Below, piece after piece: positions 1,868 through 33,313 of a DNA stretch of 33,366 nt. The notes under the pieces were generated by a model that was given only the letters and a program-made list of their open reading frames with translations, was not told the DNA's origin and ran no database searches. Source of the DNA: Gammaproteobacteria bacterium (GTDB taxonomy: Bacteria; Pseudomonadota; Gammaproteobacteria; VBWC01); the NCBI GenBank assembly GCA_006218035.1, contig VBWC01000019.1:1-33366 (forward strand). Reading direction: 5' to 3'. The translations under genes and the position numbers were made by a program. Every line of letters starts with the position of its first letter. Within the stretch, counting starts at the first letter, position 1.

Positions 1868-4234
1868 TCATGTGTCGCCCTGCCACTTCCAGTTGCGGAT
1901 CTCCGGCATGTCCTGGCCGTGCCTGTTGATGTATTGCCTGTGCTCGATCAATTTTTCCTTGATCTGCTGCTTGAGGTAAATGCCTTTGTCGCCGGTCTGC
2001 GGCAGGCGATCGATGGTATCCATCACCAGATGGAAGCGGTCCAGATCGTTCAGCACCGTCATGTCGAAGGGCGTGGTGATGGTGCCCTCTTCCTTGTAGC
2101 CGCGCACGTGGATGTTGTCGTGATTGGTGCGGCGGTAGGTCAGCCGGTGGATCAGCCACGGGTAGGCATGGTAGGCGAAGATCACCGGCTTGTCCCGGGT
2201 GAAGAGCTCGTCGAAATCCGTGTCGCTCAGGCCGTGCGGATGTTCACTGGGCGGTTGCAGCTTCATCAGGTCGACAATATTGACCACGCGGATCTTCAGC
2301 TCGGGCAAGTGCTCGCGCAGGATGGAAACGGCGGCCAGCGTTTCCAGCGTGGGCACGTCGCCACAGCAGGCCATGACCACATCGGGCGCAACCGCCTGGT
2401 CGTTGCTCGCCCACTGCCAGATACCAATGCCCGCAGTGCAGTGCTTGACGGCGGCGTCCATCGTCAGCCACTGCGGCGCCGGATGTTTGCCCGCGACCAC
2501 GACGTTGACGTAATGACGGCTGCGCAGGCAGTGGTCCATCACCGACAGCAGGCAGTTGGCATCCGGCGGCAGGTATACCCGCACGATCCCGGCCTTCTTG
2601 TTCACGACGTGGTCGATGAATCCGGGATCCTGGTGAGTGAAGCCGTTGTGATCCTGGCGCCAGACATGCGAGGCCAGCAGGTAGTTCAGCGAGGCGATCT
2701 TGCGCCGCCACGGCAGCTGCGCCGTGACCTTGAGCCACTTGGCGTGCTGGTTGAACATCGAATCGACGATGTGGATGAACGCCTCATAGCAATTAAATAG
2801 TCCATGCCGGCCGGTGAGCAGGTAACCTTCGAGCCAGCCCTCGCACTGGTGCTCGCTGAGCATTTCCATCACGCGTCCGGTGGGCGCGAGAAACTCATCG
2901 TTCGGCACGGTCGCCGCGGCCCATTGGCGCTGCGTCACGTCGAAGAGTGCTCCCAGACCGTTGGAGATCGTTTCGTCCGGGCCGAAGACGCGGAAATTCC
3001 GCTGCTCGCTGTTCAGCTTTGCGACATCGCGCAGAAAAGGCCCGAGCACACGGGTGTCGCCGATGCCGCGTATTCCCGGCGCAGTCACGTCGACCGCGTA
3101 GTCGCGAAAATCCGGCATGCGCAGGTCGCGCAGCAGCATGCCGCCGTTAGCGTGGGGATTCGCGCCCATGCGTCGTTCGCCCTCGGGCGCCAGTTCCGCC
3201 AGCTCCGGTTTCAAGCGGCCCTGCGCATCGAAGAGCTCTTCCGGCCGGTAGCTCCTGAACCAGTCTTCCAGCAACTGTAGATGTTCGGGATGCGCGGCCG
3301 GGTGGAGCGGCACCTGGTGTGAACGGAAGGTCCCTTCCACCTGCCGACCATCGACCATCGTCGGCCCCGTCCAACCCTTGGGTGACACCAGGACGATCAT
3401 CGGCCAGTGCGGACGTGTGAGATCGCCATGGGCACGAGCGCGCTTTTGAATATGCTTGATCTGCTCCACTGCCGCATCCAGTGTCGTTGCCATCGCCTCG
3501 TGCATCAGCGCCGGTTCGTGACCCTCGACGAAGACGGGCGTCCACCCGTAGCCGCGCAGTAACTGTTCCAGTTCTTCGCGGCCGATGCGCGCGAGCACGG
3601 CGGGATTGGCGATCTTGTAGCCATTGAGATGCAGGATCGGCAGCACCGCGCCGTCGGTTACCGGATCGAGAAACTTGTTGGAATGCCACGCCGTGGCCAG
3701 CGGCCCCGTCTCCGCCTCGCCATCGCCAACGACACAGGCGACGATGAGATCGGGATTGTCGAACACCGCGCCGAACGCATGGCTAAGCGAATAGCCCAGC
3801 TCACCGCCCTCGTGGATCGAGCCCGGACACTCCGGCGAGGCGTGGCTGGGAATGCCGCCGGGAAATGAAAACTGCTTGAAGAGTCTCTGCAACCCGGCCG
3901 CATCCTGGCTGATGTCGGGATATATCTCGCTGTAAGTGCCTTCAAGGTAGGTGTTGCCCACGACGGCCGGGCCGCCGTGCCCGGGACCGGAGACATAGAT
4001 CATGTCGAGGTCGTATTTTTTGATGACCCGGTTGAGGTGCACATAAATAAAATTCTGCCCGGGCGTTGTGCCCCAGTGTCCCAGTAGCATGGGCTTTATA
4101 TCCGCCAGCGTCAGCGGCCGCCTCAGCAGCGGATTATCGTAAAGATAAATCTGGCCAACCGACAGATAGTTCGCGGCGCGCCAGTAGGCGTGCATTTTGT
4201 CGAGCAGTTCCGGGACAAGGGATTTTTTCTTCAT
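1868..4234 (-). CDS. xfp: Phosphoketolase (xylulose-5-P / fructose-6-P)
   Basis: At 788 residues it has the usual family length. This thiamine-diphosphate enzyme splits xylulose 5-phosphate, and often fructose 6-phosphate, with phosphate into acetyl phosphate and glyceraldehyde 3-phosphate or erythrose 4-phosphate. Visible hallmarks are [12 protein letters not shown] near residue 52, SGPGHGGPA, the first family signature [15 protein letters not shown], and [19 protein letters not shown] containing the ThDP-binding GDG followed by the downstream Asn. The protein is cytosolic, with no signal sequence. The ATG at 4234 has GGAG about 10 nt upstream. It starts only 18 bp after acetate kinase, so the two are almost certainly cotranscribed and acetyl phosphate passes to AckA. 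No truncation is visible. Xu5P-only versus dual specificity cannot be read from sequence alone. Confidence 0.97.
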
Positions 4235-4252
4235 CGTTCAATGCTCCATGTT

Positions 4253-5446
4253 TCAGCCCATGCCGAGTACGCGGCAAACCGACCTGGCTATCATGCGCTC
4301 TTCGTCCGTGCGTATGACGCGGACCGGGACCCGGGCGGTCGTTGCAGAAATCACGCCTGCATTCGCCGCGTTGTGCGTTTCGTCGAGTTCGATTCCAAGA
4401 AATTCCAGCCCCGCACAGATCCGCGCGCGGACGGTGGGCGCGTTCTCGCCGATCCCGCCCGCGAATACCAGCGTATCCAGCCCGCCCAGCGCCGCCGCGT
4501 ATGCGCCTATCCATTTCTTGGCCTGGTAACAAAACAGCGCGATTGCTTCGGCCGCCCGCACGTCCCGCGTTTCGCACTCCAGCAAGTCACGCATGTCGGC
4601 GCTGGTCCCGGACACACCGAGCAGCCCGGACGCATGGTTGACCATTGCCTGAAATTGCGTCGCGCTCATTTTCTCGGTGCGCGCCAGGTAGGCGACCAGT
4701 CCCGGATCCAGATCCCCCGAGCGAGTGCTCATCACCAATCCCGCCGCGGGTGTGAAACCCATGCTGGTGTCGATACTCTTACCGTCGCGCACGGCGGCCA
4801 GGCTCGCGCCGTTGCCGAGATGGGCAAGGATCACGCGACCCTGCGTTGCCGCCGGGTCGCCGACGCGGGCGAGTTCTTCCATGAGGAATTCATAAGACAA
4901 ACCGTGAAACCCGTAGCGCCGCACGCCGGCCGCCTCGTAGCGTCGCGGAATCGGCAACAGACTGGCGACCCGCGGCATGGTGCGGTGAAACGCCGTGTCA
5001 AAGCACGCCACCTGAGGCAATGCCGGATGGCGTTGGCGGAATGTCTCCAGCAACGCGATCTCCAGCGGCAGATGCTCGGGATCGAACGGACTGAGCCGGC
5101 GCAGCTCCTCCACCAATGCCGCAGTGATACGCTGCGGCTCGCTGTACTTTTGCCCGCCGTGCACTACGCGATGCCCCACTGCGGTCAAGGCATCACGCCG
5201 GTTGTGTTCCTCGATCCAGCCCATCAGCGCACCCACCGCCGCCGTGTAATCCGGCGCCGTCACCGACCGCGAACAGTTGTCCGCCGGGTTCAGGCCTTTT
5301 ACCCGCAGGGTGGTCTCGGGCAGTCCAATCCGCTCAATCACGCCTGCCAGCATCCGATGGTACGAGTCACCAACCTCGAACAGCGCAAACTTGATACTCG
5401 ACGAACCGCCGTTGATCGTTAGCACGCGTTCTTTAGTCTGGCTCAC
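4253..5446 (-). CDS. ackA: Acetate kinase
   Basis: At 397 residues it is full length for the ASKHA-fold acetate kinases. It converts acetyl phosphate and ADP to acetate and ATP. The N-terminal NGGSSSIKFALF, HRVVHGGQ, FDTAFH, AHLGNGASL, SMGFTPAAGLVMSTRSGDLDPG and C-terminal FAGGIGENAPTVR motifs are all present, so the active site looks complete. It lies 18 bp upstream of phosphoketolase on the same strand, giving a two-enzyme acetyl-phosphate-to-ATP module. A decayed alpha-glucan phosphorylase gene lies immediately upstream. The enzyme is cytosolic and should also control the acetyl-phosphate pool. Confidence 0.97.
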   Translation of the reverse strand: MSQTKERVLTINGGSSSIKFALFEVGDSYHRMLAGVIERIGLPETTLRVKGLNPADNCSRSVTAPDYTAAVGALMGWIEEHNRRDALTAVGHRVVHGGQKYSEPQRITAALVEELRRLSPFDPEHLPLEIALLETFRQRHPALPQVACFDTAFHRTMPRVASLLPIPRRYEAAGVRRYGFHGLSYEFLMEELARVGDPAATQGRVILAHLGNGASLAAVRDGKSIDTSMGFTPAAGLVMSTRSGDLDPGLVAYLARTEKMSATQFQAMVNHASGLLGVSGTSADMRDLLECETRDVRAAEAIALFCYQAKKWIGAYAAALGGLDTLVFAGGIGENAPTVRARICAGLEFLGIELDETHNAANAGVISATTARVPVRVIRTDEERMIARSVCRVLGMG

Positions 5447-5514
5447 ATTTCATTCCTTTGTTTTTTTGCACGCATTGGATTTCGTTATTAACTCCGATGC
5501 CTTGCAAAACTGAA

Positions 5515-5753
5515 TTACTGTTGCCACAGGATATGGGCGTCTTCCAGCGGAACCGCCACGCCGTCGCGGTGCGGTATCAGCCGCGCGGTATAGTCTGCCG
5601 CCGGTCGGCTTGCAGCCACCTTCGCGCGATAGGCGAAACCGTTTATAGCGCCCACCACATGTCCAGCGCAAGCTCGGCCAGGGAATCGAATCCGTCGATA
5701 TCGGCGGAAAAAAAATGCTGCTTGGGGTGACTGATCTGTGTTTGTTCGTTCAT
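5515..5753 (-). pseudogene. Collapsed alpha-glucan (glycogen) phosphorylase
   Basis: From the ATG at 5753 (GGAG upstream) the frame reads MNEQTQISHPKQ, then DGFDSLAELALDMWWAL and a stop. This is the N-terminal start of the DUF3417-type alpha-glucan phosphorylases. In a different frame the last part reads NGFAYRAKVAASRPAADYTA and ends PLEDAHILWQQ, the extreme C-terminus of the same family. Roughly 800 internal residues are absent, including the pyridoxal-phosphate lysine region, and the junction is out of frame. It is therefore an internal-deletion scar and not a small gene. Its position between cardiolipin synthase and ackA suggests the ancestral operon once fed glycogen-derived sugar phosphate into the phosphoketolase route. 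Confidence 0.8.
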
Positions 5754-5783
5754 GGTGTCTCCTGCAAGGCCCCCGACAGGCCC

Positions 5784-7016
5784 TCACTCGTTTTCGGTCG
5801 GGCGCCTTTCACTGGCATAGCCGCTGATTCCCGTCATCAATCGCAGCACACTGTAACTAAGCCAGCTTATAAACCGTAAACCAGCGCGTTGCTGTTTCCA
5901 GTTTTCCGCCAGAATGCGCTGACCATCCGTTGCCACGGTATTTTTCAGGCTTTTCGCCAGGATCGCGCCAAACGCTTCGTCATCGACGACCACATTCGCT
6001 TCGCGTGAAAGAAGCAGACTGAACGGATCGATATTCGACGACCCCACCGTCGCCCAATGCCCGTCGATCACCGCCACTTTGGCGTGGAGGAAGCCCTTGC
6101 GGTATTCGTAAATTTCAATTCCGGCATCGAGCAGATTGCCGTAGAGCGCGCGCGATGCGTAATGTTCGAGAAGATATTCCACCTTACCCTGCAGCAGCAA
6201 AACCACCCGGACGCCGCGCCCGGCTGCATTGATAAGCGCATGACGAAAATCCACACCCGGCAAAAAGTAGGCATGGGCAAGAATAATTTCGGACTCCGCC
6301 TGCTCGATCGCCAGCATATACGCCGCCTCAATATCCCGGCGATGGCGGAAATTGTCTCTCATCACGAAGGCCGCGCTCATCGATCCCCCGGTGGTGGTCG
6401 GAACCGGTAGCGCCTTGTTCCGGACCGTCCCTTTGCGAAACGTGCTCCATGCCACCATGGACCACAAGCGCCGGGCGGAAAGGTGGACTACATCCACCAG
6501 CGGTCCTTCCACGGCAACGGCGTAATCATAGCGAGTCGCCATATCGCCCGCCGGTTCCCCGTCGTCAATAATGTTAATCCCTCCGACAAAGGCGATCTCG
6601 CGGTCTACCACGACAATTTTCCGGTGCATGCGGCGCAGGCGCTTGCGCCGCAATGTCCAGGGGGATATTTTTGGCCGGAAGATGAGCGTCTTCACACCGT
6701 CCGCCCGCAGCCGGTCCAGCATGCCGCGTGGCAGGTCGCTGGATCCGTAGCCGTCGATCAATACATACACCTTTACGCCGCGCCGGACCGCCCGTGTCAG
6801 CGCGTCGGCAATCCGCAGTCCGGTAGCGTCATTTTTGTAAATATACGTCTCAAGATAAATTTCATGCCTGGCCCGGTCGAACGCCGCTTCGATGGCGGGA
6901 AAATAGGCTGCTCCGTTCTGTAACAGGGTGACCTGATTGCCAGGAACAAAACCGGACCAACTCGCGGACAAGACCGCTTGATAAAAACTTCGGTGTCGTC
7001 GTTTTCCGTGGGGCAT
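5784..7016 (-). CDS. clsB: Cardiolipin synthase, ClsB-like phospholipase D family
   Basis: 410 residues with two phospholipase-D HKD motifs: HRKIVVVDREIAFVGGINI in the first half and HAKVAVIDGHWATVGSSNID in the second, each followed by the family Gly/Ser-Asn signature. The length and the lack of two N-terminal membrane helices fit ClsB-type cardiolipin synthases. These join phosphatidylglycerol with another phospholipid at the inner membrane. The start at 7016 lacks a clear ribosome site, so a slightly different start is possible. It sits on the same strand between transaldolase (337-bp gap) and the phosphorylase remnant (30-bp gap). The link to carbon metabolism is positional only. The gene symbol is by family resemblance; other phosphatidyltransferase specificities are possible. 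Confidence 0.85.
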   Translation of the reverse strand: MPHGKRRHRSFYQAVLSASWSGFVPGNQVTLLQNGAAYFPAIEAAFDRARHEIYLETYIYKNDATGLRIADALTRAVRRGVKVYVLIDGYGSSDLPRGMLDRLRADGVKTLIFRPKISPWTLRRKRLRRMHRKIVVVDREIAFVGGINIIDDGEPAGDMATRYDYAVAVEGPLVDVVHLSARRLWSMVAWSTFRKGTVRNKALPVPTTTGGSMSAAFVMRDNFRHRRDIEAAYMLAIEQAESEIILAHAYFLPGVDFRHALINAAGRGVRVVLLLQGKVEYLLEHYASRALYGNLLDAGIEIYEYRKGFLHAKVAVIDGHWATVGSSNIDPFSLLLSREANVVVDDEAFGAILAKSLKNTVATDGQRILAENWKQQRAGLRFISWLSYSVLRLMTGISGYASERRPTENE

Positions 7017-7353
7017 AACAATAGACTAGTCTCTTATGCCCTCAGTAAATATCCCCGCAAGGTTGCCGGACTCTCCATGAGACGGCTGCGAAATCGTTTG
7101 CACGGGCCATATCCGCTCCCGGTTGCGGCCGATCGCTATGGCTGCGGGTGTGCAAACGATATCGAACACCCCGTATTTCGCTGCGGCCTGCATAGTCCGA
7201 CAGCACTCCGCTGCCCGTGTTCCCGCAAGGGGTTTTACTAATCATCCGGGGTGGCGGGCAGCGGTGTGCGGCACGAGGGCACCCAGCGCATACGGCAGCG
7301 GGGGAAGACTATGTTTCACTATCTTTTTCCTTGGTGACCATTTCAGTAAATGG
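7017..7353. other. Intergenic region between transaldolase and cardiolipin synthase
   Basis: No convincing gene. It contains an 11-bp perfect inverted repeat, ATCGTTTGCAC (7093-7103) and GTGCAAACGAT (7150-7160), around 46 nt, and a hairpin at its right edge. The inverted repeat could be a regulatory stem ahead of the cardiolipin synthase gene. Confidence 0.5.
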
Positions 7354-7356
7354 TCA
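7335..7356 (-). terminator. Hairpin overlapping the transaldolase stop codon
   Basis: TGACCATTT-cagt-AAATGGTCA is a perfect 9-bp stem that includes the TGA stop of the minus-strand transaldolase gene. No T tract follows on the minus strand, so it may stabilise or attenuate the 3' end instead of terminating transcription strongly. Confidence 0.4.
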
Positions 7357-8463
7357 TTTGCGCTGCTCGCCGTCTGGATGTGTCTTCCGGGCAAGCGCGT
7401 CGCTTTTTGACGCGATGCAGGCCATCAGGTCGCGCCAGGATTTTGCGAAAGATTGTGTACCCTCGCGCTGGAGTTGGCCAGCGAGCGCTGTGTCATCTAC
7501 CCCCGCTCGCACGAACGCGGCGAGCACCTGTTCGGCGTCGCCGCCATCCAGCGGCAAAGCGCCTTTCACTGCGCCGTGTTCGGCGAAGGCGAGCAGTGTC
7601 TTCTCGGGCATGGTGTTGATGGTATCCGGCGCGGCGAGCGCTTCGATGTACAGGTTGTCCGACGCGTTGGGATTCTTGGTGCCGGTACTGGCCCACAACA
7701 GGCGTTGCTGCCGGGCGCCGGCGTCGGCCAGTTTCTGCCACCGCTTTGATGCCAGCAGATCGCCATAGGCCTTGTAGGTGCGCCTGGCGATGGCAATGCC
7801 GAGACGATTGCGCAGTGCATCGGCAACTTTGTCCTTGATGGCGACGTCCCAGCGGCTGACGAAAAGCGACGCGACGGAAGCGACATGGGGATCGAGTCCG
7901 GCGGCGATGCGCCGCTCGATACCGCGCATATACGCCTCGGCGGCGGCAATATAGTGCTCGCGGGAAAACAGCAACGTTACATTCACCGGCACGCCGGCGA
8001 AGATCGTCTCCTCGATAGCGGGTATGCCCGCGCGGGTACCCGGTATCTTGATGAACAGATTGGGGCGTTGCGCACGCGCATGCAGTGTCGCCGCCGCCTT
8101 GATGGTGCCTGCCGTGTCATCCGCCAGCAAGGGCGATACCTCCAGCGATACCCAGCCGTCCACGCCGCCGGTGGCAGCGTGGATTGGCCGGAAAAGATCC
8201 GCGGCCTGGCTTAAGTCTTCCAGCGCCAGCTCGAAGAACAATGCCTCGCCAGACTTGCCGGCCAGTGCCTTTTGGCGAATGGCGTCATCATAGAAATCCG
8301 CATTTCTGATGGCGTAATCGAAGATTGTGGGATTGGAGGTCAGCCCGGTGACGGCCAGCTCACGGATATAACGCGCCAGTGTGCCGCTGCGCAGCAGGCC
8401 GCGCGTGATGTTGTCGAGCCAGAGGCTTTGACCGAGATCGTGCAGTTGTTGCGTGGCTTTCAT
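7354..8463 (-). CDS. tal: Transaldolase
   Basis: 369 residues, the longer Tal class found in actinobacteria, cyanobacteria and many proteobacteria. It moves a dihydroxyacetone unit between sedoheptulose 7-phosphate or fructose 6-phosphate and glyceraldehyde 3-phosphate or erythrose 4-phosphate in the non-oxidative pentose phosphate pathway. Visible are LWLDNITR at the N-terminus, TGLTSNPTIFDYAI, PNLFIKIPGTRAG with the Schiff-base lysine in the FIKIPGT strand, NVTLLFSREHY, and LLWASTGTKNP near residue 250. The protein is cytosolic. A HAD-phosphatase fragment ends 17 bp upstream, so the two were one transcription unit. It would adjust pentose and hexose phosphates used by the phosphoketolase encoded further along the same strand. 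Confidence 0.95.
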   Translation of the reverse strand: MKATQQLHDLGQSLWLDNITRGLLRSGTLARYIRELAVTGLTSNPTIFDYAIRNADFYDDAIRQKALAGKSGEALFFELALEDLSQAADLFRPIHAATGGVDGWVSLEVSPLLADDTAGTIKAAATLHARAQRPNLFIKIPGTRAGIPAIEETIFAGVPVNVTLLFSREHYIAAAEAYMRGIERRIAAGLDPHVASVASLFVSRWDVAIKDKVADALRNRLGIAIARRTYKAYGDLLASKRWQKLADAGARQQRLLWASTGTKNPNASDNLYIEALAAPDTINTMPEKTLLAFAEHGAVKGALPLDGGDAEQVLAAFVRAGVDDTALAGQLQREGTQSFAKSWRDLMACIASKSDALARKTHPDGEQRK

Positions 8464-16130: not shown

Positions 16131-16618
16131 CTTAGCAAGCCATGGCGGCTGGTTCAATCAGTCATCACCGACGCAACCCGAAGTCTTTCGACGACGCTGA
16201 TGCAAACGCAACCTTGTAAAATTTCGATTGCGTGTAACCGAAGAGTTACGTCGGCACAACACCGCACAGTCTCCAACTTCTCGTAATCCCTACGCTCCGC
16301 GGGTAATTCAGGTACTCAAAACCAATTCACCATTGTTAACGTGCGCCGTTTGATATCTTTCCCGGATAATTTCCCCTACGAAGATAGTTGTACAGTAAAT
16401 ACTTCTTTTGAACGCCAACGCACATGTTGTTTGGTCCCGCTGATTCCGGTAAGTGAACGTGCTATCGTTTTGACAATTATCACGTTATGTTCGGTATAGG
16501 ACATATCGGGTTGGGGGGGGGGTATACTGCGCCAAAGGAAGTCAGTTCACATCGCAGGCTATCCGCCATGTTATTAACGTCGAACCATCGGACAAGTCCG
16601 ACAACCGGGAGGCATCCC
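16131..16618. other. Upstream region of the first Crp/Fnr-type gene
   Basis: Nearly 490 bp without a supported gene. It holds TTGACA at 16470-16475 and the G10-containing promoter candidate at 16498-16528. The rest shows no recognisable feature. Confidence 0.45.
16498..16528 (+). promoter_or_regulatory. Candidate promoter with G10 tract in the spacer
   Basis: AGGACA (16498-16503; four of six matches to TTGACA) and TATACT (16523-16528; five of six matches to TATAAT) are 19 bp apart. The spacer ends in ten consecutive G residues (16513-16522). Loss of one or two Gs would bring the spacing to the 17-18 bp optimum. It lies about 90 bp upstream of the start codon at 16619. This is inferred by eye. 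Confidence 0.45.
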
Positions 16619-17335
16619 ATGTCTATCCCACGCCTGGAACAAAATAGTCTACTCGCCGTCCTGCCCGATGCCGTACGTGAGCGGTTGTTTCCCAATCTGG
16701 AATCCGTACAGATGCCGCTTGGCGAAGTCCTTTACGAATCCGGCAGCGAATTGCCCTACGTCTATTTCCCCACGACCTCTATCGTGTCGCTGCTTTACGT
16801 CATGGAGGATGGCGCGTCGGCCGAGATTGCGGTGGTGGGCAAGGAAGGCATACTCGGGGTTTCCCTGTTCATGGGCGGCGAAAGCACACCCAGTCGGGCC
16901 ATAGTGCAGAGTGCGGGCCACGGCTTCCGCCTTAAGGGGAAGATTCTGAAGGAGGAATTCAATCGGGCCGGGCCGCTGATGCACCTGTTGCTGCGTTACA
17001 CCCAGGCATTGATTACGCAGATGGCCCAGACGGCGGTCTGCAATCGGCATCATTCCGTAAACCAACAACTGTGTCGCTGGCTGTTGCTGAGTCTGGACCG
17101 GCTGCCGTCGAACGAGCTGGTCATGACCCAGGAGTTAATCGCCAATATGCTCGGCGTGCGCCGCGAGGGCGTCACAGACGCCGCCGGTAAATTGCAGGAG
17201 GCCGGGTTGATTCACTACAGTCGCGGACACATTACCGTCGTGGATCGGCCGGGCCTGGAGGCGGAGAGCTGCGAGTGCTATCAAGTCGTCAAAAAAGAGT
17301 TCGATCGCCTGCTGCCCGACATCATCGCCGTGTGA
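16619..17335 (+). CDS. Crp/Fnr-family transcriptional regulator, copy 1
   Basis: 238 residues from the ATG at 16619, preceded by GGGAGG; in-frame codons further upstream would run through the G10 tract and are unlikely to be used. An N-terminal cyclic-nucleotide-binding-type beta barrel (about 10-120, VLYESGSELPYVYFPTTSIVSL, GKEGILGVSLFMGG) lacks the canonical cAMP phosphate-binding RxS cassette. A long dimer helix and a winged helix follow, with VMTQELIANMLGVRREGVTDAAGKL as the helix-turn-helix. Aligned to E. coli CRP, the DNA-contacting Arg180 and Glu181 are kept (RREG) while Arg185 becomes Asp. The tail has CECY. It is closely similar to the regulator at 32585-33313 and less so to the next gene. 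The ligand is unknown. Confidence 0.93.
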   Translation: MSIPRLEQNSLLAVLPDAVRERLFPNLESVQMPLGEVLYESGSELPYVYFPTTSIVSLLYVMEDGASAEIAVVGKEGILGVSLFMGGESTPSRAIVQSAGHGFRLKGKILKEEFNRAGPLMHLLLRYTQALITQMAQTAVCNRHHSVNQQLCRWLLLSLDRLPSNELVMTQELIANMLGVRREGVTDAAGKLQEAGLIHYSRGHITVVDRPGLEAESCECYQVVKKEFDRLLPDIIAV

Positions 17336-17779
17336 ATCCTGGCCAGGCTTTACGCCGTCACGACCAGACCGCCTGCCGCGCAATATCCATGCGCTAAGTT
17401 GGACAGCGCACAGACGTTACCGACATCTCAGCCTACTCTGATATCCGGCACACGACCGAACGGTCGTGTTACTTTGTGACCTGTGTAGTTTTTCTTGCGA
17501 GCAGATGAGCATCTGAGGGTCATCTGTCCGGAATCTGTGCGGACGCCCCACGCGTTACGGCGCGTCGGGCGTCGATGCCGGGTTTCCGGGCACAGGTGCA
17601 TATGGGCCGGGAAGCGGCATGACAGCGGCTTCCTCACATGGATTGCCTGCCTTACCACACTGTGGTTGACCGGGTCAGACAGTTATGAATCCCGCAAACA
17701 CCATCCGACATCAGGTTCTCATCGTGCACTTTCCGCGTGCCGCCTGTTGATTTTAACAACCGATCATCCGGAGATTTTG
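17336..17779. other. Gap between the two Crp/Fnr-type genes
   Basis: About 440 bp with no supported gene. It contains the palindrome at 17450-17469 and a single half-site-like TGTGCGG at 17536-17542. In-frame extension of the downstream gene is possible back to 17495 but lacks family resemblance. Confidence 0.45.
17450..17469. promoter_or_regulatory. Perfect palindrome, possible operator
   Basis: ACACGACCG-AA-CGGTCGTGT is a perfect 9-bp inverted repeat with a 2-bp centre, of the ACCG-NN-CGGT kind often bound by TetR-type dimers. No TetR gene is in the window. No T run follows, so a terminator role is less likely. Confidence 0.4.
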
Positions 17780-18490
17780 ATGTCCCCCACCAAGCGCAGT
17801 GTCCCCCATACGAATCGTCTGCTTGCAGCTCTGCCCCGCAAGGACCAGCAACACTTTCTCGCAGGCTGCGAACAGGTCGAGCTCGTTTTCGCCGACATTC
17901 TCTGCGAACCTGGCGAACCTTTTCGTCACGTTTACTTTCCCACCGACAGTTATATTTCTCTGGTGAGCACGGTCGATAGCGACGCGAGGCTGGAGGTGGC
18001 ACTGGTCGGCACTGAAGGCATGCACGGGATCGCCCTCGTACTCGGGGTAGATATTGCACCGCTGCACGCGCTGGTGCAGGGAGCGGGTTCAGCGTTACGC
18101 ATGAAAGCCGCAACGTTTCGCAGCGAACTCCGGCATAGCCCGGCACTGCGACATGGCCTGAGTCGCTACCTCTATGTTCGCATGATTCAGCTCGCACAGA
18201 CAGCTGCGTGCACCCGTTTTCATTTGGTGGAGGCGCGCCTCGCCCGCTGGCTGCTGATGACGCAAGACCGGGCGTACTCGGAGGAGCTGCACATTACTCA
18301 CAAATTCCTGGGCTACATGCTAGGCGTGCGTCGGGTCGGTATCACCAAAGCCGCGGGCTCACTGCAAAAGCGCAAGCTGATCAACTATAGCCGCGGCATT
18401 ATCACGGTACTCAACCGCCGCGGGCTGGAAGCGGCTTCTTGCGGGTGTTATCGGGCCGACAAGGCAACGTATGAACGCATCATGAGCTAG
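17780..18490 (+). CDS. Crp/Fnr-family transcriptional regulator, copy 2 (divergent)
   Basis: 236 residues from the ATG at 17780 with GGAG 6 nt upstream. It has the same architecture as its neighbour: a sensory beta barrel (CEPGEPFRHVYFPTDSYISLV, GTEGMHGIALVLG), a dimer helix (YVRMIQLAQTAACTRFHLVEARLARWLL) and a winged helix with ITHKFLGYMLGVRRVGITKAAGSL. Recognition-helix Arg180 is kept, Glu181 is replaced by Val and Arg185 by Lys, so its DNA preference may differ from the other two paralogues. The C-terminal CGCY parallels CECY in the others. No cAMP-binding cassette is seen. It probably has its own transcript, since 444 bp separate it from the upstream gene. Confidence 0.92.
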   Translation: MSPTKRSVPHTNRLLAALPRKDQQHFLAGCEQVELVFADILCEPGEPFRHVYFPTDSYISLVSTVDSDARLEVALVGTEGMHGIALVLGVDIAPLHALVQGAGSALRMKAATFRSELRHSPALRHGLSRYLYVRMIQLAQTAACTRFHLVEARLARWLLMTQDRAYSEELHITHKFLGYMLGVRRVGITKAAGSLQKRKLINYSRGIITVLNRRGLEAASCGCYRADKATYERIMS

Positions 18491-20177: not shown

Positions 20178-23168
20178 TTAACGCGATATCGTGTAAACTG
20201 CCGCGGCAGCGCCTACGGCGACGGCGTTTTTCCTGGGCGACATCTCGAACATACGCTCGATGCCGGCGTCGTGCACCGCGGTGATGACGAGCTTGGGCTT
20301 TACGCTCCAGGTAATGGTCTTGTCGAGCTTATGCGGCTCGTAGCTGCTGAACGTGCCGGGGTCCGCGACATCGGTATCGTTATACAGCGTCAGCACCGGA
20401 GCGGTTACCCGTTTTCTGACGAGTATCGTATGTCCGGCCGGTATCCAAAACCAGCCCTGGAACGAATCGATCGGCGTTCCCTGCGGGTTGTTGTTGTTCG
20501 TGACGCTCTTGTTTATCACGACGTAGTCCGTCGTTCCAAAGCCGGATATTTCGTGAAGCTCGGCAGAGGTATTTTTCGGTCCGTCGACGGATTCGTGGCG
20601 AATGATCCCGCGTTGCTGAAAGTTACGCAGGTCAGCGCAGTCCACGTTCGGACTGCCGCGTTGTTTAACCCTCCAGTCCCGTACCAGCGCGGGCCGGTCG
20701 TTCGTGACCAGATAGTCCCGCTTGTACTTAAGTTCATAGAACAGGCCGTCCCGTATCACCGAGTCATGTTGACTGTCGAAGTCGGCTACGTCTGCCCAGT
20801 CTCCGTCGGGCTCGGAAGCCGGCACCGCGTCCGACGACACGGCGAACGGATCGCCCGGCTGGCCTTCCGGGGGTGTCCGCGTTTCCCATGCGTTACCGTT
20901 ATAGTTTCTTACTTCGCCGATCACTTCCCAGTCGCCCGGGCTCGGACAGGAAAAGTTGTCGGCTTGGGCAAGGCCCGGTTCCACATTATTGATGGGGCGG
21001 ACACGCCACTCGACGCTGGTGACCGGTCTGACGGAATGTTCGCGCACCATCGTCTCCACGAGTTGATCGGCCTGGTGGCTACTGTCGTCATTGAAGGTGA
21101 CGTAGTACGCCTTGCCGGTGTTGTTCGTGAAGGTGTAGGTGTTGGCGTCAAACGTGACGCCGCTGATATTACCGCGATTGGCGAAGCTGTAGCCGTCGAA
21201 AAATGTCTGGCCGGTATTCGCCATGGAATCGATCGCGATGTCGGGCACCCGGATGTCCGCCCGGAACGTGAATAGCTTTTCCGTGGTGTTACCGGCCAGG
21301 TCCGTGACCTTGACGCGCAGTGTATGGCGGTCAGCAGGGATGGTTTGATGCCAGGTCGCCGCCAGCATCTCCGTCGCGACCGGCACCAGATAGCCATTTT
21401 CTCCTTCGGCAGTGTTGAGCCGACGCCACGGAGTTACCACCTTTTCATTTCGCTCGTACTGCATCGTTACAGTGACGCCGGCGCCACTGGCGGCGGGATC
21501 GGTCACGCGGAATCCAAAAAACGGAATATGGTTATTCTCCAGGTCCCGTCGCGTTATCGGTATCCCGCCCAGATCCAGCCTGTCGCTAGTCAGATACAAC
21601 GGACGATCGTCGTTTCGATCGCCGAGACGTATCTCCTCAAATGCGTCGTCACCGGTAACGAAACGCGCGCTACCGTGCCGACCAGCGGTATCGATGACGG
21701 GCCCGTCGACGTCGAGACGGACACTGGCCGCCGCCTCGTTGGCGTTACCGGCATGGTCCGTGATCACCACCGTCAGCGGGTTGATTCCCGCCTGCAGGAC
21801 CACGGCAACCAGCCAGGTACCATCGACGGCCACGCTTGCCGCGACACCGTTAACCAAAATAGACGATATGCCGGCACCGTTGTCCGTAGAGCTGCCGCTC
21901 ATCAGATAGTTCGGATTGTTGGTGACGAGCGACGACGTCACATTGACAAACGGCCGGGTGTTATCGATGTTTATTAAAAACTCGCGATGCGTCTCGTTAT
22001 CCAGCCCGTCGGTCGCGGTGACTCCTACACGGTGTGCGCCGTCGGCGTCATTGCGCGAATCCACGGCGATCGACGGCCGGGAAAGATCCTGGGCGCTGCC
22101 GATTGCCGTGCCGTCCAGCGTGAAAGTCACGGCCACGACGGCCCCCTGCACGATCACCTCGTAGGTAAATACACCGCTGTAATACAGACCTTCCGGATCG
22201 ATACTATTCACTACCGGAGGCCGGGCGGCGCCCGGATCGGACGGTTCGTTGCCGAATACGCCGCTGTCCGCCTTCGCCAGGAGAACGGCCCGATCGCGCA
22301 GATCGGCGACGCTCAGACCGGTGCGGTTTTCAGCCGAGATCGCCATTGACATCATGTGCTGCGCAAACGAAACGCGATACACGTCGGCATCGAGGGGTAC
22401 CGTGCCGATGGCAAGGTTTATCGGCTGACCGTCCCCGCCCGTGCCACGTCCGTCCAGCGCACCGTCGCTGCGAATATCCCGATACATCAGCTGCGCGAGC
22501 GACATTGATGTGTACGTGGTATGCGGATCAACGTTATTCGTCTCGCCCGCGAGCCGCGTCCAGCTTGAAATACCTGCCAGCAGGAATCCGTAAAAATATT
22601 CGTCGGTCAGCGCATTAGTGAGATTGCGCGGATCGGTGATCACGCGGGGAGTTGTATCGCGCACGTTGACGCCGAACGCCTGTGAGACATCGGCGACTGC
22701 GCTTGCTATCGCCGCACCGACGCCGGCCCCCGTGGAAATCCGGTATGCCGCCAGACCGGCGGCAAGATTGGTCAGCGGCGTCACAGTCACCGTGAGCGGC
22801 TGCCCCGATCGATACAACGACACCGCGCGCAGCAACTGACCGTCCTGCAGCGCGACAGCGGTTCCGGTCGCCTCTTCGCTATAATTCCCGCCCGCCACCT
22901 CGATCAGTAACGGCCCATCCGGCGCGCGAACGTCAATCGCGTAACGTCCTTCACCGTCGGTGGTGCCTCCACCCAGACGCTCGCCCTTGATGCCGTCGTT
23001 GAACACGTAAACATTTACCGTGCCATTGACAATGATGCCGTCGACGGCGCTGCCGCGTATCACTGATGCGGGGCGCTCCGGCGGCAGGTCCACGCTGTTG
23101 TCCAGGCACGCCGTTAACAACGCGCCCGACAGGAGTGCACAGATGAGAGCTCTTCTGTTCATTGGCAT
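20178..23168 (-). CDS. Large Ig-like repeat lipoprotein
   Basis: About 996 residues from the ATG at 23168 (a TTG at 23207 overlaps the upstream stop as TTGA and would add 13 residues). MPMNRRALICALLSGALLTAC is a lipoprotein signal with the anchor Cys at 21. A carboxypeptidase-regulatory-like beta domain follows (SAVDGIIVNGTVNVYVFNDG, GEGRYAIDV), then a helical region (about 110-310) and two or more bacterial Ig-like modules with the phrases DGLDNETHREFLINIDNTRP, VVITDHAGNANEAAASVRLD and VTDLAGNTTEKLFTFRAD. The C-terminal 300 residues are Asn/Asp-rich with no recognised fold. This is typical of an outer-membrane-anchored surface protein or adhesin. It is last in the operon with the barrel protein and the ATPase. 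Confidence 0.85.
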   Translation of the reverse strand: MPMNRRALICALLSGALLTACLDNSVDLPPERPASVIRGSAVDGIIVNGTVNVYVFNDGIKGERLGGGTTDGEGRYAIDVRAPDGPLLIEVAGGNYSEEATGTAVALQDGQLLRAVSLYRSGQPLTVTVTPLTNLAAGLAAYRISTGAGVGAAIASAVADVSQAFGVNVRDTTPRVITDPRNLTNALTDEYFYGFLLAGISSWTRLAGETNNVDPHTTYTSMSLAQLMYRDIRSDGALDGRGTGGDGQPINLAIGTVPLDADVYRVSFAQHMMSMAISAENRTGLSVADLRDRAVLLAKADSGVFGNEPSDPGAARPPVVNSIDPEGLYYSGVFTYEVIVQGAVVAVTFTLDGTAIGSAQDLSRPSIAVDSRNDADGAHRVGVTATDGLDNETHREFLINIDNTRPFVNVTSSLVTNNPNYLMSGSSTDNGAGISSILVNGVAASVAVDGTWLVAVVLQAGINPLTVVITDHAGNANEAAASVRLDVDGPVIDTAGRHGSARFVTGDDAFEEIRLGDRNDDRPLYLTSDRLDLGGIPITRRDLENNHIPFFGFRVTDPAASGAGVTVTMQYERNEKVVTPWRRLNTAEGENGYLVPVATEMLAATWHQTIPADRHTLRVKVTDLAGNTTEKLFTFRADIRVPDIAIDSMANTGQTFFDGYSFANRGNISGVTFDANTYTFTNNTGKAYYVTFNDDSSHQADQLVETMVREHSVRPVTSVEWRVRPINNVEPGLAQADNFSCPSPGDWEVIGEVRNYNGNAWETRTPPEGQPGDPFAVSSDAVPASEPDGDWADVADFDSQHDSVIRDGLFYELKYKRDYLVTNDRPALVRDWRVKQRGSPNVDCADLRNFQQRGIIRHESVDGPKNTSAELHEISGFGTTDYVVINKSVTNNNNPQGTPIDSFQGWFWIPAGHTILVRKRVTAPVLTLYNDTDVADPGTFSSYEPHKLDKTITWSVKPKLVITAVHDAGIERMFEMSPRKNAVAVGAAAAVYTISR

Positions 23169-23203
23169 GCAGTAGCGTTCAGTATCGATAACATAACCGG
23201 TCC

Positions 23204-23875
23204 TCAATATGTGTAAAGCGCGCCCAGAGCCACCGAGAATCCGCCGATTCCGTCCTGGAGCGGAAACATTTGTTCAAGCCTGGCGATAACGTCCCAATGC
23301 CGTGTCAGGTTCCATTCCGTGATCAGGTTTACCAACACTGCGGGCTGGATATCCGTCCGGTCGGCATATCTTCTCGACAGGAATCCCCCCGGATCGACGC
23401 TGTGACGATCGGTGTAGTGCACCTGCGACACGTCCAGTCCGATCCCCAGCCATGGCTGCCAGCCGAAAACGACAGGCACACTTTGCTGAAGCGAGATTCG
23501 CGCACCATATTGCGCAATATTCTGTCCGATGCCGGCCGTCGTCGCCTCCTGTCCGGCCTGCTGATAGTACGCCTCCGCCCAGTAGCGCCGGCCGTCGGAA
23601 AGCCAGTCCGTATACACAATGCCGGACGCCTGTAGCGCATTGTCGTCGGCGGCCGCGCCATATTCCGTAGCGTCGATGGACGGAGCCATCCATCCAAACA
23701 CCAAGCCTGCACGGGCTGTTTGATCCGGCATCCCGATGGCGGCGGCACGGACAGTGCCGCAGAACATCATCAACAGGACGGCGGTAAACAAGGTCCATTG
23801 CACGGTTACCGGACGCCAGCGGAAAAACGACACGGTACGTCTGCCTCGAACACTCCCTGCCACCGCCTTTAACAT
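23204..23875 (-). CDS. Outer-membrane beta-barrel-like protein
   Basis: About 223 residues from the ATG at 23875; a GTG at 23914, 20 bp after the ATPase stop, is an alternative. The signal region WTLFTAVLLMMFCGTVRAAA lies about 25-46 residues in. The mature part has alternating strands rich in aromatics (SGIVYTDWLSDGRRYWAEAYYQ, VFGWQPWLGIGLDVSQVHYT, WNLTRHWDVIARLEQMFP) and ends GFSVALGALYTY, an aromatic C-terminal strand typical of outer-membrane barrels. The pattern suggests a small barrel of 8 or so strands, close to PagL/OmpW-type lengths, but no family is assigned. Its stop overlaps the possible TTG start of the lipoprotein gene, suggesting coupled translation. Confidence 0.75.
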   Translation of the reverse strand: MLKAVAGSVRGRRTVSFFRWRPVTVQWTLFTAVLLMMFCGTVRAAAIGMPDQTARAGLVFGWMAPSIDATEYGAAADDNALQASGIVYTDWLSDGRRYWAEAYYQQAGQEATTAGIGQNIAQYGARISLQQSVPVVFGWQPWLGIGLDVSQVHYTDRHSVDPGGFLSRRYADRTDIQPAVLVNLITEWNLTRHWDVIARLEQMFPLQDGIGGFSVALGALYTY

Positions 23876-23933
23876 TCCCGCAACACCATGTCGATGAACA
23901 GATACAACGCGCACGCGGCCCCCGTCGTTTTAG

Positions 23934-26246
23934 TCACCGGGAATACGTATGGCGAAGCTCGGAGATCACGATGTTATCGTTGCGCCGCTCCACCTCCAGT
24001 CTGATGCGACCCAGGTACGCCTGTACCGCGCGCCGTCCTTTCGCACGGACGGTCACCGTGAACTCACCCTCGCCGCGCGACGTGTCGCCCGCCTCGCTCC
24101 AGCGAACACCGGTCACGACCATGTTGCGCGCCTCTGTCACGTCAAACAACTTGCGATACTCATCGGTTACGCCATTGCGGCCGGTCGAATCATTGGTTTT
24201 AACGTCGTCGGCGAGCAGGCCGGACAAAGACGCGAGGTTTCCCTGTTGATAGGCGCTGGTAAACCGCGATACGAGCTTGTCCAGTTCGACCCGGGGTATG
24301 TCATCAGTAACCGGCACCGGCACGGTTTCCGCGGACGCAACCGCAACGTCGGCAGGGGCGGCGGCGGCGCTTTCCCGCATCTCGATTGCTTGCCCGGTCA
24401 CGGTGGCGCTCGATTCATCACGCCGGGCAAGCCCCGGTCCGGGGACCGGGTGGCGTGCCGCCAGCCCGGCGCCGGCGGCGGAACGCTGTAGTTCCGCGGC
24501 GCGCGGCACCTGCGTCCCGGCTAATTTTGCCGGCACAATCTTCGCCGCGACCGCTGCCGCAGCGGCCCCACTGGCATCGGCGGATGGCGACGCGGGTTTT
24601 TCTGACGGATCACTCGCTGCTACGTCGGCGTCTGACACGCTGTTATTGTCTTCGTCGGTTTGCCAGTGCCGTCTTGCTCCGTCGTTATCGCGCCGCGTGG
24701 CGACCGGCGCGTTGTTGGGTATACCGCCGGTTCGCTCGTTCCTCTCCCGACCATCCAGCATAGCGCTCGAATGATCGGCTCGCAGAACGCCGATGATATC
24801 GTGATCGCCCCGAACGTCGGCGGACGGGAACGATTTCGTCTGCGTTGGCGGGTTCGCCACGTTCAGTCCAGCGACGATGTCCGGGAAAGACTGCACAGGC
24901 TGCACCCACTGCGGCGGGTCGGGTCGCGCAATTTCCACTGGCGATCCACCGGTGCTTGTCCGCGCGCCGCTCTGCCAGTTTCTTGCAGCAGCGGTATCCT
25001 TTGCGACCGCCGGCAGAATGCCGATGAAGATATCGCTGCCAACGGGACGCTGCCCCTTTAATGCGTTCGCTGACAGCGTATTGTCAGGCGCGCTCACCGC
25101 GGTGAGCAGTAACGTCACCAAGGCGGCGCCTGCCGCGATATTCCCGCGCGACGTTGGTGTGCGCTGCAACCCTTGAGGTACGGTAATGCCGGAAACCGCT
25201 ACCGGCGGCAACGCCGCGGCAAGCGTGTCCGCTGCGGCGCCGCCGAAGACCGGTCCGTTCCTGACGACGGGGTTCCTGCGCATAACTTCCGGCGCCGGAG
25301 TGCGCGCGATATTAGCGTTAGCGGCAACCGGCGCCACGCACGATCGCGCCGGACCAGTATCGCCGGTGCCGGAAGCCGAAAGGGTCCGCAACGGCATAAC
25401 AACTTCCGTCGTAGAACCGAACGTTTCGTTCAGTCCGCCGATCTCTTCGTACAACTCCTGTATGACACGCGCGATGATCTCATCGGTAATGACATGACTC
25501 TTCTCCAGACTGCTGCACAACAGTAACCGCTGGCATATCAGGTTGATCCTGCGCGGATTGCCGCCACTATATTGATTCACGGCCATGTAGGCGGCATCGG
25601 TGAAACGCGGATTTCCTTCCCAACCGGCCCGGCGCAAACGATGTTCAATATATTCGGTAACCTCGGACGGCAGCAGCGGGCTTAGCTGATACGCGGCGAT
25701 TACGCGTTCCTTGAGCAAATCCACGCTGGCGCCATCACACTTGTTTCGTAATTCAATGGTACCCAGCAAAATACATTGAAAAAGCGCCCTGGCTCCGAAT
25801 TGCAGATTGGAGAGCATCCGCAATTCCTCGATAGACTCACTCGGCAGGTTCTGGGCTTCGTCGATCAACAGAATCACGCGCTGTCCGTCGCGGACGCGCG
25901 CAAGCATGAACTGACGCAAATTCTTGAGCGCGGAGGCCTTGTCGCCGCACCGCGTCAGACCGAAGGCATCCGAAATGGCGTAGAGCATCTCCTCCGGCTC
26001 CAGCGACGCGATCGCCAATTCGCCCACAATCACGTCCGTTTGCTGCAGTTCGCTCAACAACATCCGGGAAAGTTCGGTCTTGCCCGCCCCGGACTCGCCG
26101 GTGACCACAATAAAACCTTCACATTGCAACATTCCGTAACGCAAGTACGCCAACGCGCCGTTATGGGTGCCGCTCGCGAAGAAAAACTGCGGGTCCGGCG
26201 TCAGACGGAACGGATTCGTATGCAGCCCGTAAAAGTGTTCATACAT
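23934..26246 (-). CDS. ExeA/exosortase-type AAA ATPase with membrane segment and NTF2-like domain
   Basis: 770 residues from the ATG at 26246, GGGAGAAG upstream. It begins MYEHFYGLHTNPFRLTPDPQ, the opening of ExeA/GspA and XrtA-associated ATPases. Walker A GESGAGKT is at 50-57 and Walker B VILLIDEAQN at 124-133, with sensor and winged regions to about 270. After a linker there is one hydrophobic segment (GNIAAGAALVTLLLTAVSA, near 375), then about 250 disordered Ala/Pro/Ser-rich residues, and a C-terminal NTF2/SnoaL-like domain (about 655-770: LVSRFTSAYQQGNLASLSGL ... ISELRHTYSR). So the ATPase is cytosolic and the C-domain probably periplasmic. ExeA carries a peptidoglycan-binding domain there instead. 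It leads the three-gene operon; a dyad lies 153 bp upstream. Confidence 0.9.
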   Translation of the reverse strand: MYEHFYGLHTNPFRLTPDPQFFFASGTHNGALAYLRYGMLQCEGFIVVTGESGAGKTELSRMLLSELQQTDVIVGELAIASLEPEEMLYAISDAFGLTRCGDKASALKNLRQFMLARVRDGQRVILLIDEAQNLPSESIEELRMLSNLQFGARALFQCILLGTIELRNKCDGASVDLLKERVIAAYQLSPLLPSEVTEYIEHRLRRAGWEGNPRFTDAAYMAVNQYSGGNPRRINLICQRLLLCSSLEKSHVITDEIIARVIQELYEEIGGLNETFGSTTEVVMPLRTLSASGTGDTGPARSCVAPVAANANIARTPAPEVMRRNPVVRNGPVFGGAAADTLAAALPPVAVSGITVPQGLQRTPTSRGNIAAGAALVTLLLTAVSAPDNTLSANALKGQRPVGSDIFIGILPAVAKDTAAARNWQSGARTSTGGSPVEIARPDPPQWVQPVQSFPDIVAGLNVANPPTQTKSFPSADVRGDHDIIGVLRADHSSAMLDGRERNERTGGIPNNAPVATRRDNDGARRHWQTDEDNNSVSDADVAASDPSEKPASPSADASGAAAAAVAAKIVPAKLAGTQVPRAAELQRSAAGAGLAARHPVPGPGLARRDESSATVTGQAIEMRESAAAAPADVAVASAETVPVPVTDDIPRVELDKLVSRFTSAYQQGNLASLSGLLADDVKTNDSTGRNGVTDEYRKLFDVTEARNMVVTGVRWSEAGDTSRGEGEFTVTVRAKGRRAVQAYLGRIRLEVERRNDNIVISELRHTYSR

Positions 26247-26415: not shown

Positions 26416-26902
26416 TAAGACGACAGGCTCCTGGTTGCGGATGTAATCACTTCAGGTAACCGGAGCCGGGATTGACAGAAAGGGTGTTTTACTGCGAGAC
26501 CGCCGGATCCCCGCGGATGCCGCCCCAACTTACGACGGTACAATATTCGCTTTTTTATGAGGGCCGTGTCGCGACATTCCCACTATAGCGACGCAGGGAT
26601 AATCGATCGTTCTCACCAAACCTGATGTCCCTTACAGTTAGCGATCCATCGCTTCCCTGACCCATGATCTTGCGCATTTGCTTATGCATCATGCGCATAT
26701 GCTTCCCATGTCTTGCGGTTATTCATCGTATTTTGCAGCGATGAGCTGTCTGTTACGCCTGGTAATCGGGACTTGACATGGATGCTTTTACATTGAGAGT
26801 GCATGTTGTTCCGTGCGTTATCGTACATAGACTGCGTTTATGTGGCGCCAACGTCGACCGGGCTTACCTGAACATGACCAATCAGCGAGTGAAACGATAG
26901 AC

Positions 26903-26951
26903 GTTTATATGCCCAATGGCTTGAGGGTGTTCAGCCATTGGGCATATAAAC
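26903..26951. repeat. Perfect 19-bp inverted repeat hairpin
   Basis: GTTTATATGCCCAATGGCT (26903-26921) and its exact complement (26933-26951) enclose an 11-nt loop. No T tract follows on either strand, so it is not a classic terminator. It could be a structured RNA, a cruciform-forming site or a mobile-element end. Confidence 0.75.
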
Positions 26952-27070
26952 ATCTCGGGCATCGGATCCCACGGGGGTGAACGCTACTTGATGGTCAAAA
27001 AACGCGGTCGATTGCTTGCTGTGCTATAGAGTAATCGCCAGTGACTTCCCCCAGGCAGCCACTGTTAGCC

Positions 27071-32584: not shown

Positions 32585-33313
32585 ATGTCATCACCTCATA
32601 GTCCGAATCAGAACCATCTTCTCGCCGCCTTGCCCGCGGCGGAATTCGAGCGCCTGGCGGCGCATCTGGAACTGGTGCCGATGCTGCTCGGTGAAATGCT
32701 CTACGAACCCGGCGAACAGTTGCAGCACGCCTATTTCCCCACCACCGCCATCGTGTCGCTGCACTATGTCATGGAGTCTGGCGCTTCGGCCGAAACCGCG
32801 GGCGTGGGTAATGAAGGCGTGATCGGTATTTCGCTGTTCATGGGCGGGGGTACCACGCCAAGCTCGGCCGTGGTGCAGACCGCGGGCCACGCTTACCGGC
32901 TGGAGAGCCGCTTGCTGATGCAGGAATTCAATCGCGCCGGCCTGATGCAGCGTTTGTTGTTGCGCTACACCCAGGCACTGATTACCCAGATGACCCAGAC
33001 TGCGGCCTGCAATCGGCACCACTCGGTAGAACAGCAGCTGTGCCGCTGGCTGTTGCTGACCCTCGATCGATTGCCTTCGAACGAATTGATCATGACGCAG
33101 GAACTTGTCGCCGGCATGCTGGGCGTGCGCCGGGAAGGTATTACGGAGGCCGCCGGGAAGTTGAAGCATGCCGGTTATATTCGCTACCGCCGTGGCCACA
33201 TTACAGTGCTTGAGCGGTCCGGCCTGGAGGCCCACGCGTGCGAATGCTACACCGTGGTCAAGAAGGAATTGAGCCGTCTGCTCTCCGATGTGCGGTGCCG
33301 TGACGTTGCCTAG
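32585..33313 (+). CDS. Crp/Fnr-family transcriptional regulator, copy 3
   Basis: 242 residues, last gene of the signalling operon, 24 bp after the receiver-PAS gene. Its sequence closely tracks the regulator at 16619-17335: LAALPAAEFERL, LYEPGEQLQHAYFPTTAIVSLHYVM, GNEGVIGISLFMGG, LLLRYTQALITQMTQTAACNRHHSVEQQLCRWLLLTLDRLPSNELIMTQEL, HTH MLGVRREGITEAAGKL, tail ACECY. Relative to E. coli CRP, Arg180 and Glu181 are kept and Arg185 becomes Glu. No cAMP cassette is visible. Placing a DNA-binding protein at the end of a kinase/c-di-GMP operon suggests it supplies the transcriptional output, possibly on the dyads found here. Confidence 0.94.
   Translation: MSSPHSPNQNHLLAALPAAEFERLAAHLELVPMLLGEMLYEPGEQLQHAYFPTTAIVSLHYVMESGASAETAGVGNEGVIGISLFMGGGTTPSSAVVQTAGHAYRLESRLLMQEFNRAGLMQRLLLRYTQALITQMTQTAACNRHHSVEQQLCRWLLLTLDRLPSNELIMTQELVAGMLGVRREGITEAAGKLKHAGYIRYRRGHITVLERSGLEAHACECYTVVKKELSRLLSDVRCRDVA

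Follow-up and report, generated by a model that had tools for sequence, protein, structure and literature searches.

What do an ATPase that ends in an NTF2-like domain, a small barrel of the outer membrane and a large lipoprotein with Ig-like domains do together? Genes for the three lie in the same direction on the minus strand, at positions 20178-26246 of the 33,366-nucleotide gammaproteobacterial stretch analysed here (the window), and an initial annotation had read them as a compact export or surface-display system. A literature search gave no description of these families, at most analogues. From the sequence and from single-chain models, on which the analysis was based throughout, we tentatively favor another reading, held with somewhat less than even confidence: the barrel and the lipoprotein would together provide contact or anchoring at the surface, with the inner-membrane ATPase-NTF2 protein positioning or assembling the two.

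The three genes and their products

The features of the locus are collected in Table 1. The ATPase start at 26246 (MYE...) matched the starts of its homologues, and the given starts of the other two genes are probably too far upstream. The GTG start of the barrel gene would yield a signal peptide some 57 residues long, and the true start therefore probably lies further in. For its part, the lipoprotein gene has an ATG 15 codons beyond the given TTG (at 23162) that yields a normal lipoprotein signal of about 18 residues, and a GAGGA motif fits both of these starts poorly. Since the TTG start is doubtful, the translational coupling through TTGA that had been suggested for the two genes is not to be relied on.

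Table 1. Positions of the features discussed (window coordinates, except for the contigs in the last row)
Feature	Position	Strand	Length or residues	Basis
ATPase-NTF2 gene	26246-23934	minus	770 aa	AAA_22 1e-22, SnoaL_2 5.8e-5, TIGR03015 285 bits, homologues
Predicted XrtA/ExeA-type AAA ATPase domain, Walker A GESGAGKT	25437..26246	minus	residues 1-270	TIGR03015 alignment, own-genome relative
Single predicted membrane segment (GNIAAGAALVTLLLTAVSA)	25086..25142	minus	residues 369-387	Kyte-Doolittle scan
Pro/Ala/Ser-rich linker, presumed disordered and periplasmic	24312..25085	minus	~250 residues	composition of translation; inference
C-terminal NTF2-like domain	23937..24311	minus		SnoaL_2; A2 profile vs PDB; 30/369 genomes
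Barrel gene	23914-23204	minus	236 aa as given	AlphaFold2 model, Foldseek
Mature barrel	about 23207-23743	minus		within 23204..23914
Lipoprotein gene	23207-20178	minus	1009 aa as given	lipobox LTAC, Glucodextran_B/Big_13
Mature lipoprotein	20181-23108	minus	from Cys34	lipobox
Conserved N-terminal lipoprotein domain, TTR-like beta and helical, into first Ig-like domain	22038..23090	minus		alignment A3; model
Ig-like domain (Glucodextran_B / Big_13)	21711..21929	minus		Pfam-type match
T4SS-type pair loci	contigs C53, C62 (window genome); G205 C17; CP013100

The layout first proposed for the ATPase, an ExeA/XrtA-type AAA domain followed by a membrane segment, a disordered linker and an NTF2-like end, was borne out. 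AAA_22 (1e-22) covered residues 43-168, with a Walker A motif, and the TIGR03015 model of XrtA/PEP-CTERM ATPases aligned end to end with the N-terminal 270 residues (6e-85). The genome's own true TIGR03015 member (at C51) was 52% identical to the window domain and sits in an exopolysaccharide cluster. The window protein differs from that group in its score (284.9 bits, under the curated cut-off of 324.5), in its additional membrane segment, linker and NTF2 domain, and in belonging to a genome without exosortase, as a PF09721 search of the whole assembly found none. The hydropathy of its membrane segment was marginal (1.71, Kyte-Doolittle), and most homologues had a stronger segment at a similar place. 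Assignment of the C-terminal domain to the NTF2/SnoaL-like group is based on SnoaL_2 at residues 659-751 (5.8e-5, below the gathering score) and on the alignment profile A2, which matched NTF2/ketosteroid-isomerase chains in the PDB at 1e-3 to 1e-2.

A cytoplasmic AAA domain, one membrane segment and a periplasmic domain are also the layout of ExeA/GspA and DamX, and the trio, judged from its domains, appears to follow this known plan as a variant. Unlike those proteins, the window ATPase has an NTF2-like periplasmic domain rather than a peptidoglycan-binding or SPOR domain; Pfam gave no match to a peptidoglycan-binding domain, the C terminus being SnoaL/NTF2-like. A defence-system or phage origin was considered and rejected, with PADLOC and PHROG matches to the ATPase part only and none for the barrel and the lipoprotein. 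At one homologous locus (L143, 2941-7385), the barrel is preceded by two XrtA-type ATPases in tandem, and the coding sequence of the second breaks into two frames ahead of its NTF2 part.

The AlphaFold2 model of the barrel protein had eight strands (pLDDT 86.2), and the best Foldseek matches were Ail, OmpA, OmpX and NspA (E 1e-6 to 1e-5), which points to an OmpA-like small barrel. The protein shares its strand number and Foldseek fold with the OmpA/Ail/OmpX/OmpW proteins but differs from them in its low identity (about 10-15%), in its conserved extracellular loops and in lying nearly always beside a dedicated lipoprotein. It also matched no Pfam family, OmpA and OmpA_membrane included; a sub-threshold match to OmpW was obtained with one homologue only. 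Conservation was higher in the extracellular loops (0.50) than in the periplasmic turns (0.39), a difference that has no control family for comparison, and was highest in loop 3. The general rule for outer-membrane proteins is the reverse. Because the loops exceed the turns and loop 3 exceeds all other regions, the sequences suggest a conserved partner on the outside, for which the N-terminal domain of the lipoprotein would be the nearest candidate. The outer and inner halves of the barrel as wholes did not differ in conservation (P 0.79), the difference being restricted to loops versus turns.

The lipoprotein has the features of an outer-membrane lipoprotein: a lipobox signal (LTAC-L) with no Asp at position +2. 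Most lipoproteins of the family likewise lack this Asp, which is present in the homologue L064, and the lipoprotein-type signal and a short tether are kept among the lipoproteins of the pairs. In the model (pLDDT 80, pTM 0.45), a TTR-like beta domain and a helical domain were followed by Ig-like domains and, at the C terminus, by a further beta domain. Foldseek matched the lipoprotein to adhesins of the Ig type, SiiE and RTX adhesins among them, a likeness of generic fold only; the C-terminal domain had no sequence match in the PDB and gave only generic Ig-type matches in Foldseek. A lipoprotein of more than 2900 residues that starts with the same N-terminal domain was found on a Vibrio campbellii replicon (L134), with no barrel found beside it.

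These properties bear on the machine first envisaged, in which the energised ATPase would drive the lipoprotein out through the barrel. The order of the genes, the cell-envelope layout and the adhesin-like body of the lipoprotein speak for it. However, the barrel is predicted to be eight-stranded and OmpA/Ail-like, and we know of no protein-sized pore in the OmpA/Ail/OmpX class, so export through it is unlikely and is not proposed here. In addition, the periplasm lacks ATP, the linker is long and presumed disordered, and the pair is found without the ATPase. Sec and Lol would be enough to bring the lipoprotein to the outer membrane, since it has an ordinary signal peptide and a lipobox, mostly with no Asp at +2 in the family. 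Altogether, we regard such a machine as highly improbable. SLAM also combines an outer-membrane barrel with a neighboring surface-lipoprotein candidate; SLAM is a large barrel with an N-terminal TPR domain, whereas the window protein has 236 residues, eight strands and no TPR match.

The genes around the trio were as first described in that no secretin, pilin or exosortase was present among the annotated genes of the window. Between the ATPase gene and a divergent PAS histidine kinase lies a 23-bp inverted repeat (26899-26955, 96% complementary, 11-nt loop) that occurs as a single copy in the genome. The window also encodes three Crp/Fnr-type regulators (16487-18490 and 32585-33313), as well as a hybrid kinase rich in PAS domains and a number of c-di-GMP proteins, and genes for phosphoketolase, acetate kinase and transaldolase occur in one stretch of the minus strand (1868-8463).

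Recurrence of the trio in related genomes

The three families were searched for in 369 genomes of the class, mostly MAGs, in which several loci were cut by contig ends. The barrel was found in 18 genomes, the NTF2 domain in 30, and the N-terminal domain of the lipoprotein more widely, in 62. Sixteen of the 18 barrel genomes also had the NTF2 family (P 5e-18), and at the level of taxonomic families the two were shared in 7 of 9 (P 3e-7), relatedness being not fully corrected for in either value. At 32 distinct barrel loci, the lipoprotein gene directly followed the barrel gene in 27 cases, and a gene for an NTF2 protein directly preceded it on the same strand in 15. When the lipoprotein alone was used as the query, most loci with enough contig again showed ATPase-NTF2 and barrel genes upstream, a check that is partly independent, as some contigs came from the same genomes as in the barrel search. 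No fourth gene recurred at the trio loci. In a sample of 398 genomes at the phylum level, the barrel was found in no genome besides that of the window.

The three genes are thus real and lie where they had been placed; they are not a chance grouping of open reading frames, because their neighborhood is conserved, and the trio recurs across little-studied gammaproteobacteria. The expectation that the three families would adjoin in related genomes was therefore confirmed, and their divergences track each other: pairwise distances of the NTF2 domain correlated with those of the barrel and of the lipoprotein (r 0.84-0.85), and those of the barrel with those of the lipoprotein (r 0.69, paralogues included). 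Such co-conservation and correlated distances are also expected from simple co-inheritance. The genes might then be mechanically independent, an adhesin lipoprotein and its companion barrel being co-transcribed with an unrelated ATPase-NTF2 gene. The pair and the NTF2 proteins do each occur alone, and the NTF2 tree did not support the barrel-linked NTF2 domains as one clade. Against this, all three genes are on the same strand and closely spaced at the 15 loci, in several families and with no fourth gene, and we consider independence quite unlikely. The pair lacked an adjoining ATPase-NTF2 gene at many loci, and the ATPase is therefore not obligatory beside it.

Exopolysaccharide and T4SS settings

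The NTF2 tail proved to be modular, its partner being an AAA domain, a DnaJ-like domain (mostly without HPD) or, within a single chain, both. Two NTF2 domains in tandem occurred in proteins from five loci (L110, L114, L113, L123 and L126), and one genome (G300) gave ten NTF2-domain matches. Several of the DnaJ-NTF2 and AAA+DnaJ-NTF2 proteins are encoded in exopolysaccharide operons, alongside Poly_export/SLBB, Wzz/tyrosine kinase, Wzy_C, YjbH and CpsB, and the DnaJ-type member of the window genome itself adjoins a sugar transferase. This context was mostly read by eye from the starts of the sequences, and 9 of 10 proteins matched in a profile check.

That several NTF2 relatives occur in polysaccharide operons without the pair counts against the reading that we favor. 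The main rival takes these operons as its basis: the ATPase-NTF2 protein would be an accessory of polysaccharide export, and the pair would anchor or retain the polymer at the surface. The similarity of the AAA domain to TIGR03015, with its exopolysaccharide-cluster member in this genome, agrees with this as well. However, no polysaccharide genes surround the trio in the window, none recur at the other trios, and the pair occurs with T4SS genes instead; we judge service to an exopolysaccharide to be on the unlikely side.

At four loci (Table 1), the pair had no NTF2 protein and instead closed a T4SS-like operon that included genes of the VirB4/TraC and VirD4-like kinds, the assignment of the T4SS gene families being weak except for VirB4. 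Two of these loci are in the window genome, which has four barrel-lipoprotein pairs in all. The contig with ParA and an RepE/RepM-type initiator (C53) is for that reason probably a plasmid, the contig of genome G205 is cut and holds only the downstream part of the operon, and CP013100 is a plasmid of Candidatus Tenderia electrophaga, the only one found to carry the pair in PLSDB. The two loci of the window genome (L012, C53 1-593, and L011, C62 18714-19315) have the same breakpoint inside the lipoprotein gene, with an identical tail of 59 bases; the two copies, both in T4SS operons, have a stretch in common that was left unresolved in the assembly. A similarity of the VirB8-like T4SS protein to the NTF2 domain, which would have connected the T4SS setting with that of the NTF2 proteins, was considered and was not detectable (hhalign probability 0.8%, no PDB match).

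The recurrence of the pair in T4SS operons points to a mobile module for contact at the cell surface, more than to a novel channel for export. In IncHI plasmids, Ig-like proteins promote conjugation by cell contact (PMC6764697, PMC8730810), a precedent that, by analogy, would fit this setting. The proteins in question, RSP and RSP2, are large and Ig-like, as is the window family, and are encoded in transfer regions. RSP, however, is exported by the T4SS, whereas the window family consists of lipoproteins with a barrel of their own, most copies of which do not adjoin a T4SS.

A candidate trans-envelope surface module

In the reading that we favor, the trio would be a trans-envelope surface module with a dedicated outer-membrane pair. 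The N-terminal domain of the lipoprotein, tethered near the lipid anchor, would associate with the OmpA/Ail-like barrel, and the Ig-like part would project as a stalk, adhesin-like or able to bind a ligand. The ATPase-NTF2 protein would be their partner in the inner membrane. On the cytoplasmic side, its XrtA/ExeA-type AAA domain would use ATP, and the linker would carry the NTF2-like domain through the periplasm, where it would capture, position or assemble the pair. The domain layout makes such a link between the two membranes plausible; contact between the proteins, exposure at the surface, a function as adhesin and the part played by ATP are what we infer.

The action envisaged would be comparable to that of ExeA and ExeB, which help to assemble the outer-membrane secretin (PMC4098917). 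The trio differs from that system in having no adjoining gene for ExeB or a secretin, none being present among the annotated genes of the window, and in having a small barrel and a lipoprotein as outer-membrane partners.

A broader and more doubtful version would make the pair a mobile, general-purpose surface contact unit plugged into AAA-NTF2, DnaJ-NTF2 and conjugative T4SS systems, and would cast the NTF2-tailed AAA and DnaJ proteins as adaptors across the envelope, of a class not described before and in common with exopolysaccharide export. Three settings that to our knowledge had not been linked before, namely XrtA-type ATPases, operons for exopolysaccharide and those of T4SSs, are joined here. 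If the proposal is true, a periplasmic NTF2 domain with a pair of small barrel and lipoprotein would join the short list of routes by which inner-membrane ATPases may act on the outer membrane, and the pair would be a candidate contact device for the conjugative elements of uncultured gammaproteobacteria.
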